Source: Caldilineaceae bacterium SB0661_bin_34 (GTDB lineage: Bacteria; Chloroflexota; Anaerolineae; Caldilineales; Caldilineaceae). Taken from it: a stretch of 34,259 nt of DNA. Positions 11,370 through 30,442 of this stretch are shown here, piece after piece. The stretch spans positions 1-34,259 of the forward strand of contig VXMJ01000056.1 of assembly GCA_009841145.1 (NCBI GenBank), in the 5' to 3' direction. The notes below the pieces were generated by a model. That model had not been told where the DNA came from, made no database searches, and saw only the letters and a program-made list of their open reading frames with translations. The translations under genes and the position numbers were made by a program. How positions within the stretch are numbered: the first letter of the stretch is position 1; each line of letters begins with the position of its first letter.

Positions 11370-11610
11370 GGGTACTGCTCTGTATCCGGTATGGCGGTAG
11401 GTCTGTTGGCGAAGTTTCAGGCAGGACCGTGCGCAATCCACACGTTTATGCCAAAAGGAGTACGATTCTGCAGGGACAGGGCAGCCGAGCCTTCCTGCCG
11501 GTCACGTTTCGGCCTGCCGCGCATGGATGCGACCATGCGGTGATCCCTACAATGAACGATGTATCGTCAATCCCACACCTACTGAAAGTTTGCCACCAAG
11601 GAGCATTGCC

Positions 11611-12747
11611 GTGAGCCAGCTCGAGTCGTCGATTTTCACTGATCTGGGCGTGGCGCCCGTAATCAACGCCGCCGGACCCCGCACGGTCATGGGCGGATCC
11701 CGCCTGTCTCCGGCCGTGGCGGAGGCCTACCAGGCTGCCAACCGCCATTTTGTGGTGATGAAGGACCTCCAGGCACGGAGCGGAGAGCATCTCGCGCAGA
11801 TGCTGGGTTCCGAGATGGCGCTGGTCACCTCCGGGTGCGCGGCCGCCCTTTCGCTGGCGGTGGCCGGCATCATGAGCGGTACGGACCGCGAGCGCATCGC
11901 CCAGCTGCCGGACACCACCGGCATGAAGGACGAGATCGTAATCCAGGCCTGCCAGCGGTATTCCTACGACCGCGCTCTTACCCTGTGCGGTGCGCGCCTG
12001 GTCGAAGCCGGCAGCCCGGAAGGCGTCACGGAGGCGGAACTGGAAGCCGCCATCACGGACCGGACGGCTGCTGTCCACTACCTGGGAGTGGACTTCTGGG
12101 GTGTTCAGGAACACTCCCTGTCGTTCGAAACCCTACGGGATGTCGCCCACGCTCACGACCTGCCCTTGATCGTGGACGCGGCCAGCGTGGTCTTTCCCCT
12201 GGAGCGGATGACTTGGTTCTCCGAAAACGGCGCCGACATCGTCTGCTTCGGGGCCAAGTACTTCGGCGCCTTCAACGGCAGCGGCATCCTGACTGGCAAG
12301 CGCAGGTACATGGAAGCCGCCATCGAGCACTCGTTTGTCAACTTCGAAACCGAACAGAACCGGGCGTTCGGGCGTCCGTTCAAACTGGACCGTCAGGAGA
12401 TCGTGGGGGTGGTGGCCGCCCTGACCGAGTGGTTCGAGATGGATCACGAGGAGCGGATGGCCCAGAACGAGGCAAAGGGCAGGGTCCTGCGGCGTACGGT
12501 GGCCAACTGTCCCGGGGTCACCAGCCACTGGGAAACGCGCCTGACCTCCATCATGGACACGGTTCGGCTGGAACTGGATGAAGGGGCCGCCATGTCCGCC
12601 CAGGAACTGAGCGAGGCACTGGCCAGCGGCAATCCCTCGATTGTCACGCTGGCCGACGGCAACAGCCTGGACGTGGTGGTCAACCAGCTGTACGAGGGCG
12701 AAACGGAGATTGTGGCTGAGAGGCTGCAGGAATTGTTGGGAGGCTGA
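11611..12747 (+). CDS. SelA-related PLP-dependent enzyme
   Basis: A 378-residue fold-type I PLP enzyme of the SelA-related group (the family around D-glucosaminate-6-phosphate ammonia lyase, TIGR01437-like). The start is GTG at 11611, with AAGGAG 7 bases upstream; a longer open frame from 11527 lacks this support. The N-terminal VINAAGPRTVMGGSRLSP is typical of the group. TSGCAAAL (73-80) is the cofactor phosphate region, Asp189 in LIVDAAS contacts the pyridine nitrogen, and Lys216 in FGAKYFGAFNGSG is the predicted Schiff-base lysine. Likely chemistry is dehydration/deamination of an amino or hydroxy acid from sugar catabolism, consistent with the surrounding importers. It is shorter than genuine selenocysteine synthase, and I do not assign it that role. 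Confidence 0.82.
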   Translation: MSQLESSIFTDLGVAPVINAAGPRTVMGGSRLSPAVAEAYQAANRHFVVMKDLQARSGEHLAQMLGSEMALVTSGCAAALSLAVAGIMSGTDRERIAQLPDTTGMKDEIVIQACQRYSYDRALTLCGARLVEAGSPEGVTEAELEAAITDRTAAVHYLGVDFWGVQEHSLSFETLRDVAHAHDLPLIVDAASVVFPLERMTWFSENGADIVCFGAKYFGAFNGSGILTGKRRYMEAAIEHSFVNFETEQNRAFGRPFKLDRQEIVGVVAALTEWFEMDHEERMAQNEAKGRVLRRTVANCPGVTSHWETRLTSIMDTVRLELDEGAAMSAQELSEALASGNPSIVTLADGNSLDVVVNQLYEGETEIVAERLQELLGG

Positions 12748-17612: not shown

Positions 17613-19343
17613 TCAGCCTGTTCGCACAATGGTGTACAGGTGGTTCGGGTCCAATCCCTGTATCGTCTGGCTTTCCCCGTCGGGCCAAAGGATCTCCAAC
17701 TGCCGTAATTCCGCCTGCTCCGGGAAACCAAAGTGGACTACGGGAGGCAAACCGGACAGATACCCGCCCGTGACCTCCAGCAGCCTCAACTGGGAGCCCT
17801 GGTCCGTGTGCAGCACCAGTTGGGCACCAACGCCGTGCGTATTGTGGGCATAACGATCCCGCAGCCGGATCTGGATTGAGGATCCCTGACACAACTGGTT
17901 CTCCAGCAGGACGGCCGGAGACAACAGGTTGCTGATCACGACATCCAGATCGCCGTCGAAGTCCACGTCCCCGACAGTCATGCCCCGGCCCCCCTCGCGC
18001 AATCCCATGTTCCATTCCGGAGCGGGCACGAAACCCCGGCCCTGATCATTGCGGAAGGCCCAGTTGGTCTCCACCAGTTCGTTGTCCGGCAGGTGGCTGA
18101 ACAGTTCGACCGCATTCATGCCGTTGACCACGTACAGGTCCAGGAAGCCGTCCTGATCGAAATCCGCCAACTGTGAGGACCAGGTCCAGCCGGTCGCCGC
18201 GATACCCGCAACCGGCGCCGCATTCGCGAACCCTCCTTCTTGGTCCTGTACCTGTAGGACGTTTTCCGTGATTTGTCGGTCGGTCGGATCCTCCAGCACC
18301 TTCGCCATCACCGGGGCCCAGGCCGCCTGGACCGCCGGATCATCGGTCCGCGGCTTCATGTCGGCCGCGAACAAATCCAGGTGCCCGTCGTTGTTGACGT
18401 CGCCCACGCTGTAGCTCATGGTGTTCTGGGTCGTGTGTTCGAAGGGCACACTGTCTTGCCAGCCTTCGCTGCGCCACTTCCAGGCTCCATCTTCCAGCAG
18501 GAAGTCGTTGCCCGCCACGACCACCGCGCCCTCCCGCGCGGGCAGGGCGGCGAGAGCCAGGGCCTGGGAGCGACGCGCCAACATTCGGCTGTGGAATCGG
18601 CCGTCGCGATATTCGTGCCAATAGACCCCCGAGTCTGTTTGACCCTCAAAACCTTCCCCCAGCAACGCCTGGAGCTCCAGATCGTAGGAACCGGTCAGCA
18701 CGTCCAGATCACCGTCCGCATCCGTATCGGTCCATGCCATGCTGTAGGCGATCTTCGCGATGCCCGGCACAACCGTCCTTGAAAACGCCGAGGTCTGTGT
18801 CGCAAGCGCGTTGGCCTGACTCAGATACGCGATCGGCGGCTCCAGACGGCGGGTGAAGACAATGTCCAGCAACCCGTCGCCGTCGATGTCCACCGTGGCC
18901 GCGCCCCGGGAGTCCGTGTCGGACAGTTCCGTGCGCCGGAACTGCAAACCGCCTTGATTCCACAGGATCACATTGGGTTCCGAGAGGTTCGCCAAGATGA
19001 TTTCCGGCAGGAGGTCCCGGTCCAGATCACCCAGGGCCACCCCCGAACCGTTGCTGTCGAACATGTACACGCCCTTCTCCCCGGGGATCAGGCTCACGCT
19101 GTCCAGGGTATGGCGTACAAAGGTGCCGGCACAACCGGAGCGGTCCGCAAACGGAATCCGGGTCACGACCGTCGCGGGCTGCACGCCATGCACCGCCTCT
19201 CCACCGTGCATGGGAGCAATCCCGGGCGCGGCACAGGACGCAAGGGAGAACAGGACACAGATCGTGCACAGCAGGGCCGGGAATCGGGACCGCGAGGGCA
19301 ACCTGAAATCGGAGCCGGCAGGCATCGAGGCGTGGGATTTCAT
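17613..19343 (-). CDS. FG-GAP/VCBS and ASPIC/UnbV lipoprotein (CRTAC1 family)
   Basis: A 576-residue beta-propeller protein. The N-terminus is a lipoprotein signal (LLCTICVLFSLASC). The body carries repeated Ca-binding-like FG-GAP/VCBS motifs: DLDRDLLPEI, DIDGDGLLDIVF, DTDADGDLDVLT, DVNNDGHLDLFA, DFDQDGFLDLYV and DVDFDGDLDVVI. The C-terminus is an ASPIC/UnbV domain (IQIRLRDRYAHNTHGVGAQL, VTGGYLSGLPPVVHFG). The family is extracellular and probably binds carbohydrate or protein. The ATG at 19343 is 8 bases after the stop of the upstream permease, with CAGGAG before it. The same frame stays open to 20234, but that part is the permease gene read out of frame. As the last gene of an importer operon, it may present the substrate at the cell surface (inference). 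Confidence 0.87.
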   Translation of the reverse strand: MKSHASMPAGSDFRLPSRSRFPALLCTICVLFSLASCAAPGIAPMHGGEAVHGVQPATVVTRIPFADRSGCAGTFVRHTLDSVSLIPGEKGVYMFDSNGSGVALGDLDRDLLPEIILANLSEPNVILWNQGGLQFRRTELSDTDSRGAATVDIDGDGLLDIVFTRRLEPPIAYLSQANALATQTSAFSRTVVPGIAKIAYSMAWTDTDADGDLDVLTGSYDLELQALLGEGFEGQTDSGVYWHEYRDGRFHSRMLARRSQALALAALPAREGAVVVAGNDFLLEDGAWKWRSEGWQDSVPFEHTTQNTMSYSVGDVNNDGHLDLFAADMKPRTDDPAVQAAWAPVMAKVLEDPTDRQITENVLQVQDQEGGFANAAPVAGIAATGWTWSSQLADFDQDGFLDLYVVNGMNAVELFSHLPDNELVETNWAFRNDQGRGFVPAPEWNMGLREGGRGMTVGDVDFDGDLDVVISNLLSPAVLLENQLCQGSSIQIRLRDRYAHNTHGVGAQLVLHTDQGSQLRLLEVTGGYLSGLPPVVHFGFPEQAELRQLEILWPDGESQTIQGLDPNHLYTIVRTG

Positions 19344-19351
19344 CTTCGCAG

Positions 19352-20284
19352 TTACTCCTGGTAGACCCACCGCCGGCGAATGGTCCAGTTGAATGCCGTC
19401 ACCATGAAGGTCAGCAGAAACAGGATCCAGGCCACCGCGGAGGCATACCCCATCTTGAAGAAACGAAAGCCCTGCTGGTACAGGAACATGGAAATGCTGA
19501 TGGTGCTGTCGCGGGGACCGCCCCGGGTCATGATGTACATCTGCTCGAACACGGCCAGGCTGGAGGAGATGGAAATGATCAGCACAAAGAACAGCGCCGG
19601 GGACAGCAGGGGAATGGTCACGCGCAGGAACAGCTGGCGGCCGTTGGCACCGTCGATGGTCGCGGCCTCCTTCAGTTCGCTGGGAATGCCCTGCAGGCCA
19701 GCCAGCAGGATGATGGCGTAGTAACCCACCCAGCGCCAGACGGACATCACCACGAGAGCGATCATGGCCCAGCGCACATCCCCCAGCCAGGCTTGGGCGG
19801 GCAGGTTCAGGAGTTCCAGAGCCCAGTTCAGAACGCCGAACCGGAAGTGGTAGATCCAGGACCAGATAAAGGCCACGGAGATGAAGTCGGTGACGATGGG
19901 CAGGAAGCACAGCAACCTCACCACCGGCACGCCCCAGACCCGTTGATTGAACAGCAGGGCAAAAAGCAGGGCCGCCACGATCACGAGCGGCGTGAATTCC
20001 ACCGTATAGACAAGGGTGTTGCGCAACGCCGTGAGAAACACCTTGTCCGCCATCAATTCGATGTAGTTCTCGGCCCCCACCCAGCGTGCCCGGCTGATGC
20101 CGGACCAGTTGGTAAAGCCCATGATCAGGGAGAAGACGCCGGGCCCCAGGGTCAACACCAGAAACCCAATCAGGTTGGGGGCCAGGAAAAGCAGGGCGGC
20201 CAACGCCTCCTTGTTCCGGGGTCTGCGGAACCATGGGCGACGAACCGCACCGGGTGCCGTTGGCGTGTGGGTGCCGACAGCCAT
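19352..20284 (-). CDS. sugar ABC transporter permease, MalF type
   Basis: A 310-residue CUT1 permease. The N-terminus is cytoplasmic and basic (VRRPWFRRPRNKEA), then the first helix LAALLFLAPNLIGFLVLTLG. The EAA loop reads LKEAATIDGANGRQLFLRVT followed by IPLLSP. Unusually for this window, it lies second among the permeases of its operon: binding protein - MalG type - MalF type - FG-GAP lipoprotein. Its start is three bases beyond the stop of the MalG-type gene, implying tight translational coupling. Confidence 0.9.
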   Translation of the reverse strand: MAVGTHTPTAPGAVRRPWFRRPRNKEALAALLFLAPNLIGFLVLTLGPGVFSLIMGFTNWSGISRARWVGAENYIELMADKVFLTALRNTLVYTVEFTPLVIVAALLFALLFNQRVWGVPVVRLLCFLPIVTDFISVAFIWSWIYHFRFGVLNWALELLNLPAQAWLGDVRWAMIALVVMSVWRWVGYYAIILLAGLQGIPSELKEAATIDGANGRQLFLRVTIPLLSPALFFVLIISISSSLAVFEQMYIMTRGGPRDSTISISMFLYQQGFRFFKMGYASAVAWILFLLTFMVTAFNWTIRRRWVYQE

Positions 20285-28424: not shown

Positions 28425-29051
28425 TCAACCGGCCGACCGACTGCCCCACTCCGTTTCCAGAAACGTCTCCGGCTCGAGGCCCAGCGCATCGGCCACGCGC
28501 GTAATGTAGTTGAAGAAGGCAATGATCTGGACCGCGTCCATGACGGCCTCCTCGCTGAAGCCGAGACTGCGCAAGGTCTCCAGATCACCCGCCGTCATGT
28601 CATGCTGGGTGTGGGTCAGCTTGGCTGCGAACGCGCACAGACCCCGGTCTGCCTCGGACAGATCGGCGGTCCGCCAATCGTGGACAAGCCCGTGCAGGAA
28701 ACCGTCGGCATCCGCCGGTGAACCCTGCAGTGTTTCGGCGATCTCTTCACGGAGATCGTGGGCATGGGCCTGCGTTCAGTAGGGACAGGCCAGTTCAGCC
28801 GACACCACCGTGGCCAGCATCTCCCGCTGCACACGCGTAAGGTCCGAGGGTCCGTGCATCGCCTCCTGGTAGAACTGCATGGCAGCCTGCAGCGTGCGGG
28901 GCCGCAGACTGCCAACCTTGACAATCTTCCAGATGCGGCCCGCCCGGCCCAGAGCCTCGTCGTAGATCCGCCGCAGCAGACCCGTGGATTCCTCGTAGGA
29001 GATCTGTCTTATCCAGGCCAACTTCCATCTTTCCCAAACACGAATGGACAC
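28425..29051 (-). CDS. AhpD-like peroxidase-related selenoprotein (TGA = Sec)
   Basis: A 208-residue member of the AhpD/carboxymuconolactone decarboxylase family (peroxidase-related, TIGR01926-like), provided the in-frame TGA at 28776-28778 is read as selenocysteine. Before it the frame gives WIRQISYEESTGLLRRIYDE, GSLRPRTLQAAMQFYQEAM and LATVVSAELACPY. After it come TQAHAHDLREEI, ADLSEADRGLCAFAAKLTH, LRSLGFSEEAVMDAVQIIAF and FNYITRVADALGLEPE, ending at a TGA at 28425. The TGA sits exactly at the second redox Cys of C-x-x-C-x-x-x-H: Cys89-Pro-Tyr-Sec92-Thr-Gln-Ala-His96. A SECIS-like hairpin follows. Such proteins use the Cys/Sec pair for peroxide or thiol redox chemistry. The start is uncertain: GTG at 29051, or TTG at 29021, which gives the family-like LAWIRQI start. 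The rival explanation is a Cys-to-stop nonsense mutation. Confidence 0.82.
28739..28758 (-). promoter_or_regulatory. putative bacterial SECIS element
   Basis: On the coding (minus) strand, 17 bases after the TGA, CGATCTC (28758-28752) and GAGATCG (28745-28739) form a perfect 7-bp stem closed by the six-base loop CGTGAA. The loop starts 24 bases after the TGA and has G at its second position. This fits the bacterial SECIS pattern as I remember it: a hairpin just 3' of the UGA inside the coding region, apical loop about 16-37 nt away, G among the first two loop bases. SelB would bind it to insert Sec. Confidence 0.7.
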
Positions 29052-29156: not shown

Positions 29157-29672
29157 CTATGAGTGGGACTGGCCCTTCAGCACCCAGTTAACCCTGACTT
29201 CATCCAGCAGGATGTCGGCGGCAAGGGTCCGGGTCCGCGCCAGAGCCTCGTCGGCGGACAGCCCGGCTTCAATGAGCAGCCGTGCGGCCACCATGCCGTT
29301 GCGCTCGTATCCGGACCGGCTGTGGATGGTCACTTTCTTGCCCTTGGCCAGCATCCCGCACAACACCGTGCTGTAGGGCGGCCAGAGGTTCTCGAACCAT
29401 TCCCCAGGCACCGTGTGGTCCGCGATTGGGAGATGGATCCAGGTCATGCCCACAGCCATGGCCGTGCTGCCCAGATCCTGCACATTCAGGATTTCGAACT
29501 CCACGTCCTCCAACAGGGTCACCAACGCGGTCGTACCCCAGTCCAGCAGATTCTGCAGATCCGCCACCAGGCGGTCCGCCGGCGACCGGGTATCGCCGGG
29601 CGTGGCCAGGATCCCGGGACAGGTTGTGACACCGATGGTGCCGTTGCCGGCGGCCAGTTCCTTAATAACCAT
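29157..29672 (-). CDS. tyrosine/dual-specificity phosphatase-like protein, catalytic Cys replaced by Ser
   Basis: A 171-residue protein of the CDKN3/dual-specificity phosphatase-like group. It shows DLQNLLDWGTTALVTLLEDV and ILNVQDLGSTAMAVGM, then WIHLPIADHTVPGEWFEN and the P-loop region TIHSRSGYERNGMVAARLLI. The CX5R signature should read HCxxxxxR; here it is HSRSGYER, with Ser (codon AGC) in place of the nucleophilic Cys and the Arg kept. Cys-to-Ser is the classic substrate-trapping change, so the protein probably binds a phosphorylated ligand without hydrolysing it, or is decaying. The ATG at 29672 is chosen from where similarity begins; the frame stays open to 30314 through the IS110 relic. 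The next gene on the strand, the selenoprotein, begins 105 bases downstream. Confidence 0.75.
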   Translation of the reverse strand: MVIKELAAGNGTIGVTTCPGILATPGDTRSPADRLVADLQNLLDWGTTALVTLLEDVEFEILNVQDLGSTAMAVGMTWIHLPIADHTVPGEWFENLWPPYSTVLCGMLAKGKKVTIHSRSGYERNGMVAARLLIEAGLSADEALARTRTLAADILLDEVRVNWVLKGQSHS

Positions 29673-29804
29673 GCGGGACAGACAATCAGTTGAAACAGAA
29701 CAAACCGACACGACGGGTGGCCAAGCCATCCGTGCCTGCGCGCAGCCACGCCGTTGTTTCATGGTACCTGTCCGACGGGCAACCACGGAAATCGCCGTAC
29801 GGAC

Positions 29805-30442
29805 CGGAATTACGGCAGGATGGCGAGCCGGCATACCGGATCCCGTCTGTGCGGCCCCTGCCGGATGCCGACCTGCGGGCCTCCACGTGCGCTCCACGTG
29901 CGCTCGTGGTGTAACGACACCAGCTGACCGCCATGTGCGTACAGGCGGAAACTCGTCCGGACAGCGCATCCGCTGCCACACAGCCCCGCATTCGGACCCA
30001 TCTGGGACTGGCTGCAACCCAAACCGGAACACTTGAACCGGGAACCCAAGGCCCGGCTGTGCAACCTTCCAACCTGACATGTCCAGATCGGGTTGAAGCG
30101 CCGCATGCCCGGGGATGGCACCGTGGTGGCTTCCGTGCTCGCCGCCGAACTGCCGGAGCCGGGGCATCTCAACGGCCAAATGGCGACCGCTTTGGTCGAT
30201 GTGGTGCCCCTGAACCAGAACAGCGGTCAACAACAAGAGCTTCACCGTGTCCGGGGCGACCACGCTGCCATAAGCACAATCCTCTCCATGGCAACCGTGA
30301 CCGTCTTCCGCCACAACCCCCTATCGATGCCTTCCACAACTTCTTGCACCGACATGGCGAACCTGGAAGAGTGGCGCTCGCAGCCGCCATGCGCAAGCTG
30401 CTCCCCATCCTGAACGCGGTGATCCGAGACCGGGTTCCCTGA
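29805..30442 (+). pseudogene. IS110-family transposase relic
   Basis: A decayed DEDD transposase of the IS110 family, readable only by switching frames. IPSVRPLPDADLR (ending the N-terminal RuvC-like domain) is followed by RALVV, a TAA stop and RHQLTAMCVQAETR. A second frame gives WLQPKPEHLNREPKARLCN, a TGA stop, then LKRRMPGDGTVVASVLAAEL and PEPGHLNGQMATALVDVVPL, followed by NQNSGQQQ...MATVTVFRHNP (Transposase_20 domain). After another shift near 30320, AFHNFLHRHGEPGRVALAAA and MRKLLPILNAVIRDRVP end at TGA 30440. At least two stops and two frameshifts make it inactive. The catalytic N-terminal part before about 29805 is not recognisable, and the element ends and any bridge-RNA region cannot be defined. 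Confidence 0.78.

Follow-up and report, generated by a model that had tools for sequence, protein, structure and literature searches.

Gene structure at the locus

The window, a stretch of 34,259 nucleotides (contig VXMJ01000056.1 of Caldilineaceae bacterium SB0661_bin_34), carries on its minus strand a reading frame (29051..28425) with a single internal stop, the TGA at 28778-28776, and no TAA or TAG. The initial annotation had described this frame as AhpD-like on both sides of the TGA, with the TGA in place of the second Cys of a C-x-x-C-x-x-x-H motif and with 116 open, family-like codons downstream. All of this was borne out by our analysis. The motif C-P-Y-(TGA)-T-Q-A-H was found, on the minus strand, and gives the residues C-P-Y-U-T-Q-A-H when the TGA is read as selenocysteine (Sec, U). 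A recheck of the frame recovered the 116 open codons between TGA 28778-28776 and the final TGA stop at 28427-28425, a run whose chance of staying open at the local GC content was ~3%, and the family scores and the selection on both halves of the gene agree with family-like coding sequence on either side of the TGA. The features of the gene are listed in Table 1.

Table 1. Features of the AhpD-like selenoprotein gene in the window
Feature	Position	Strand	Details
AhpD-like selenoprotein CDS	28425..29021	-	198 aa, predicted Sec as residue 82; preferred start TTG 29021-29019; stop TGA 28427-28425
In-frame TGA, predicted Sec codon (U82)	28776..28778	-	Takes the second position in CPYU, a redox motif of CxxC type
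C79, first Cys of CPYU, likely partner of U82	28785..28787	-	Invariant in the homologue alignment
His86, proton relay E67-C79-Y81-U82-H86	28764..28766	-	Invariant in the homologue alignment
bSECIS hairpin	28739..28758	-	Stem of 7 bp (CGATCTC/GAGATCG); apical loop CGUGAA at 24 nt from the UGA
Leader with RBS (more likely) or N-terminal extension from GTG 29051	29022..29051	-	GGGAAAG 7 nt before the TTG

The start of the gene differs from that given in the initial annotation, which had placed it at GTG 29051. Homologues begin with M-[PA]-W-I and do not contain the ten codons between GTG 29051 and TTG 29021, and each of the four genus genomes keeps a purine-rich segment, GGGAAAG or a near variant of it, 7 nt 5' of the TTG. 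Based on these homologue N-termini and the conserved purine-rich leader, translation probably starts at TTG 29021, with GTG 29051 as the alternative. Within the genus, changes in the ten codons were mainly nonsynonymous (few sites).

The neighbours of the gene, encoding a GlcNAc 2-epimerase, sugar ABC transporters, and a DSP-phosphatase-like protein, were conserved only within the genus, and an operon-based assignment of function was therefore dropped. Frequent "conserved ORFs" near the gene were rejected as shadow frames or pieces of the selenoprotein gene itself. The frame just upstream (29157-30314, minus strand, 385 aa) was likewise conserved only in the genus; at its C-terminus, the product weakly matched a DSP-type phosphatase domain (Tc-R-P), with a score below the cut-off. 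Between 21257 and 34244, the selenoprotein gene is flanked by the GlcNAc 2-epimerase gene and by several sets of carbohydrate-type ABC transporters, made up of solute-binding proteins and permeases. At 17613-20234 (minus strand), the window encodes a protein of 873 aa that combines FG-GAP repeats with an ASPIC/UnbV domain.

Conservation and distribution of the in-frame TGA

The nearest named records were Caldilineales/Caldilineaceae MAGs (Chloroflexota), which were 95% identical. In a GTDB-wide scan with patterns that left out the region of the TGA column, all 80 best relatives (80/80) had TGA at the U82 column. When homologues were aligned, as the initial annotation had proposed, 103 of the 110 had TGA at this column and the other seven, which were more distant, had Cys (TGC/TGT). 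The Cys of the non-Sec homologues thus aligns with the TGA, a pattern used as a criterion for selenoproteins. All four genus genomes share this TGA, and independently assembled genomes had TGA, not TGC/TGT, at the U82 codon.

The first 42 nt 3' of the TGA were identical across the four genus genomes, compared to a dS of ~0.15-0.3 in the rest of the gene. Within the genus, dN/dS was 0.02-0.11 upstream of the TGA and 0.08-0.24 downstream of it, compared to ~0.8-1.1 in the 60 codons before the start. Judged from these substitution patterns, purifying selection acts on the gene both before and after the TGA, and close homologues keep the downstream half, the absence of which had been named as an argument against recoding. 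It is this conservation that makes it certain that the interrupted frame is more than chance; the folding energy of the hairpin and the openness of the 116 codons would not convince on their own.

Of 396 genomes from the same class, 90 had a match at E <= 1e-15, mostly with TGA. In the tree, Sec occupied the U82 column in 107 of 113 rows, and the core clade that includes the window gene (102 rows; Chloroflexota, Gemmatimonadota, Actinomycetota, Latescibacterota, Planctomycetota, Myxococcota, and others) was entirely Sec. No Cys form within the core clade was found among the best hits, a sample that could hide closer Cys forms. Four Cys rows grouped together, nested among more distant Sec rows (support 99/97), which suggests either a Sec-to-Cys change or several gains; because the branches are long and the Cys rows few, this reading is tentative.

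The motif CxYU[ML]xHH, also with TGA, was found in a TIGR01926-like group at a greater distance (L038, L040, L042, L047, and L048). The hairpin of this group was in a different register, with zero to three of the seven core pairs, possibly representing an independent SECIS. The core and the CxYU[ML]xHH types were found together in some genomes (G064 and G091).

Probable recoding signal and Sec machinery

A perfect 7-bp hairpin with loop CGTGAA, noted earlier as SECIS-like, is present 17 nt after the TGA as CGATCTC-CGTGAA-GAGATCG. We applied the published bSECIS consensus (PMC13188914), which asks for a loop of 3-9 nt, a stem of 4-16 bp, a distance of 16-37 nt from the UGA, and a G within the first two loop positions, usually with G or U next to it on the 3' side; an MFE <= -7.5 was applied as well. 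The hairpin fits this model, with a 6-nt loop CGUGAA, 7 bp, and a distance of 24 nt from the UGA, and the 42 nt following the UGA had an MFE of -12.4 kcal/mol. Compared to dinucleotide shuffles, the folding energy had z-scores from -0.5 to -2.3 depending on the stretch, and the family mean against synonymous-codon shuffles was only -0.5; these z-scores were weak and were dropped as evidence for a SECIS.

Codon usage and base pairing were more informative. The stem Leu codon was CTC in 98/98 core sequences, compared to a CTC share of 27% among the other Leu codons of these genes. The loop Arg codon was CGT or CGG in 98/98 (42% elsewhere in the same genes), and CGC, the commonest Arg codon elsewhere, was found at the loop position in none of the 98; these counts include kin, and the trials are not independent. 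The restriction of the loop Arg codon to CGT/CGG corresponds to the loop C-G-[U/G] that the bSECIS model describes. Standard pairs filled 97.6% of pair cells across 24 distinct sequences, whereas slid controls reached 26-43%. None of 500 shuffles attained the covariation score of 0.218. The clearest compensatory pair was 24-37, where C-G changed to U-A with both sides changed in seven sequences, and the compensatory support in these sequences comes mainly from this one pair. A scan of the window at Rfam gathering scores gave no match, which we do not hold against a SECIS because bSECIS elements vary. The hairpin thus both obeys the published model and covaries.

The genome (4.34 Mb, 102 contigs, 98% complete) contained all four of selA, selB, selC, and selD, the genes that the initial annotation had suggested searching for: SelA (478 bits), SelB (297 bits, over the cut-off), SelD (314 bits, its gene also interrupted by an in-frame UGA), and, as selC, a tRNA-Sec with anticodon TCA (UCA tRNA-Sec; 67.5 bits, over the gathering score). 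Co-occurrence with the Sec machinery discriminates little, since selA was over the cut-off in 88 of 100 relatives. The UGA of SelD lies in the context SCAGU-ASK (locus L017, G000:C40:42966-43913). A second likely Sec gene, thioredoxin/TlpA-like, was found on another contig (L154, G000:C94:32929-33255, minus strand; WTFGUINCKR), with a perfect stem and a G-first GTT loop ~26 nt downstream of its UGA. A PLP enzyme with weak SelA/class-V aminotransferase similarity is encoded in the window (11527-12747, plus strand); it is distinct from the SelA of the genome, which is on a different contig.

Two explanations without recoding were considered. In-frame stops in MAG contigs frequently reflect errors or decay, and the codon could truly be TGC/TGT or mark a recent nonsense-mutated pseudogene. 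However, the same TGA recurs across the genus (four genomes) and in the 80 best relatives from several phyla, and dN/dS after it is well below 1, which leaves this explanation exceedingly improbable. UGA has been reassigned in other bacteria, and it could stand for another amino acid (e.g., Trp or Gly) throughout the genome, without Sec-specific recoding at this codon. Against this, TGA terminates at least eight reading frames in the window, including the AhpD-like gene, and so TGA is still an ordinary stop in this genome; moreover, non-UGA homologues have Cys at the U82 column, and the genome has tRNA-Sec(UCA), SelA, SelB, and SelD. We consider reassignment hardly credible.

The interpretation as a selenoprotein therefore stands as originally proposed, with the machinery present, the TGA column conserved, the downstream half under purifying selection, and the hairpin fitting the bSECIS model. 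Together with the gene structure and the fold family, these sequence features indicate that the locus is almost certainly a genuine selenoprotein gene, in which UGA is read as Sec to give a 198-aa AhpD-like redox protein.

Fold, predicted activity, and relation to known selenoproteins

The read-through protein exceeded the cut-offs of both TIGR01926 (peroxidase-related enzyme; 118.6 bits, cut-off 81.8) and Pfam CMD (PF02627; 43.8 bits, cut-off 23). AlphaFold2 with a 12-row alignment gave an AhpD-like fold (pLDDT 91.6, pTM 0.88). The best fold matches in the PDB were 6k40, 2pfx, 2prr, 2oyo, and 3c1l, all AhpD-like or peroxidase-related (TM 0.77-0.83), and the same five structures were obtained from a sequence profile search. 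By profile score and predicted model, the fold family is AhpD-like, in the "peroxidase-related" branch TIGR01926. Two alignments placed CxYC of these structures where the selenoprotein has CxYU, with Cys for Sec at ~25-30% identity. A related domain with a CxYUT motif is found in NF041238 (AhpD_rel_CFYUT); the protein matched 130 positions of this model with 64.8 bits, and the genome search gave 55.2 bits. Assignment to this family was rejected since the score was below the cut-off of 175, and the selenoprotein matches just the C-terminal part of the 357-position model.

E67, C79, Y81, U82, and H86 were invariant in the homologue alignment. Proton relays have been described for M. tuberculosis AhpD (E118, C130, H132, C133, and H137) and PA0269 (E36, C48, Y50, C51, and H55) (PMC3141380), and the spacing of E67-C79-Y81-U82-H86 is identical to both. 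Therefore, the Sec at U82 would replace Cys133 of M. tuberculosis AhpD. The fold and the proton-relay residues point to a predicted peroxidase role.

From these features, we infer both Sec insertion at U82 and enzyme activity. Ribosomes would initiate at ~29021 on the minus strand, and at UGA 28778-28776 the bSECIS hairpin 17 nt downstream would recruit SelB with Sec-tRNA-Sec(UCA), so that Sec is inserted in place of termination and an all-helical 198-aa product results. C79-x-x-U82 would form a thiol/selenol redox couple, with E67, Y81, and H86 in the proton relay. The U82 selenolate may attack a peroxide or another oxidised substrate, a selenenyl-sulfide would then form between U82 and C79, and U82 could be re-reduced by a cellular thiol (dithiol) system.

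The protein could instead be a real selenoprotein with a different activity, such as a Sec-dependent reductase (e.g., in reductive dehalogenation, cf. the debrominase Bmp8) or a thiol-disulfide adaptor. The AhpD-like debrominase Bmp8 (6ohi) was among the structural matches, TIGR01926 members are merely "peroxidase-related", the core clade is entirely Sec, and the neighbourhood comparison found no conserved neighbour gene pointing to a substrate. However, the Bmp8 match was much weaker than those to the peroxidase-related and AhpD folds, which were the closest, and the AhpD proton relay is kept at identical spacing; a non-peroxidase activity is thus rather unlikely. A narrower reading, in which the enzyme is Sec-obligate, perhaps a reductase of hard substrates rather than a peroxidase, and the nested Cys group arose by Sec-to-Cys change, is doubtful.

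An annotation ending at the UGA would lose 59% of the AhpD-like selenoprotein, and automatic annotation would cut the gene in two because the UGA looks like a stop. The gene is hidden in this sense, as initially claimed, but its family is already catalogued (AhpD-like, TIGR01926, CxxU). The selenoprotein could be called correctly from raw sequence, and the locus provides a documented genomic case, with machinery, SECIS, and selection, for a family known mostly from metagenomes. The multi-phylum core clade, in which every sampled member is Sec, is mildly notable and makes "why Sec, never Cys" a testable question (U82 versus U82C enzymes).

Literature listings since 2005 agree with the earlier statement that AhpD-like proteins are among the bacterial Sec families. 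AhpD-like CxxU selenoproteins were described in 2005 from the Sargasso Sea (27 sequences; PMC1088965), and in 2008 the GOS data yielded "AhpD-like 1" (COG2128, CxxU, 299 sequences; PMC2398784). The AhpD-like selenoprotein also appears as COG2128 in PMC9312934, and Table 1 of a 2026 review has the entry "AhpD-like protein, TIGR01926, CxxU" with the representative MCB9421940.1 (PMC13188914). Given these reports, the present selenoprotein is not new in kind: the call is sound, and the family is already known, without a new mechanism. The Sargasso Sea and GOS proteins share with it Sec in place of the second Cys and a SECIS guanosine in a small apical loop, but they are metagenome sequences, whereas the present case is a complete gene in a genome with Sec machinery. 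The catalogued TIGR01926 CxxU family has the same NCBIfam model, Sec position, and post-UGA bacterial SECIS. Compared by description with this family, the present copy differs in nothing categorical, having the motif CPYU and residing in a Caldilineales-type genome.
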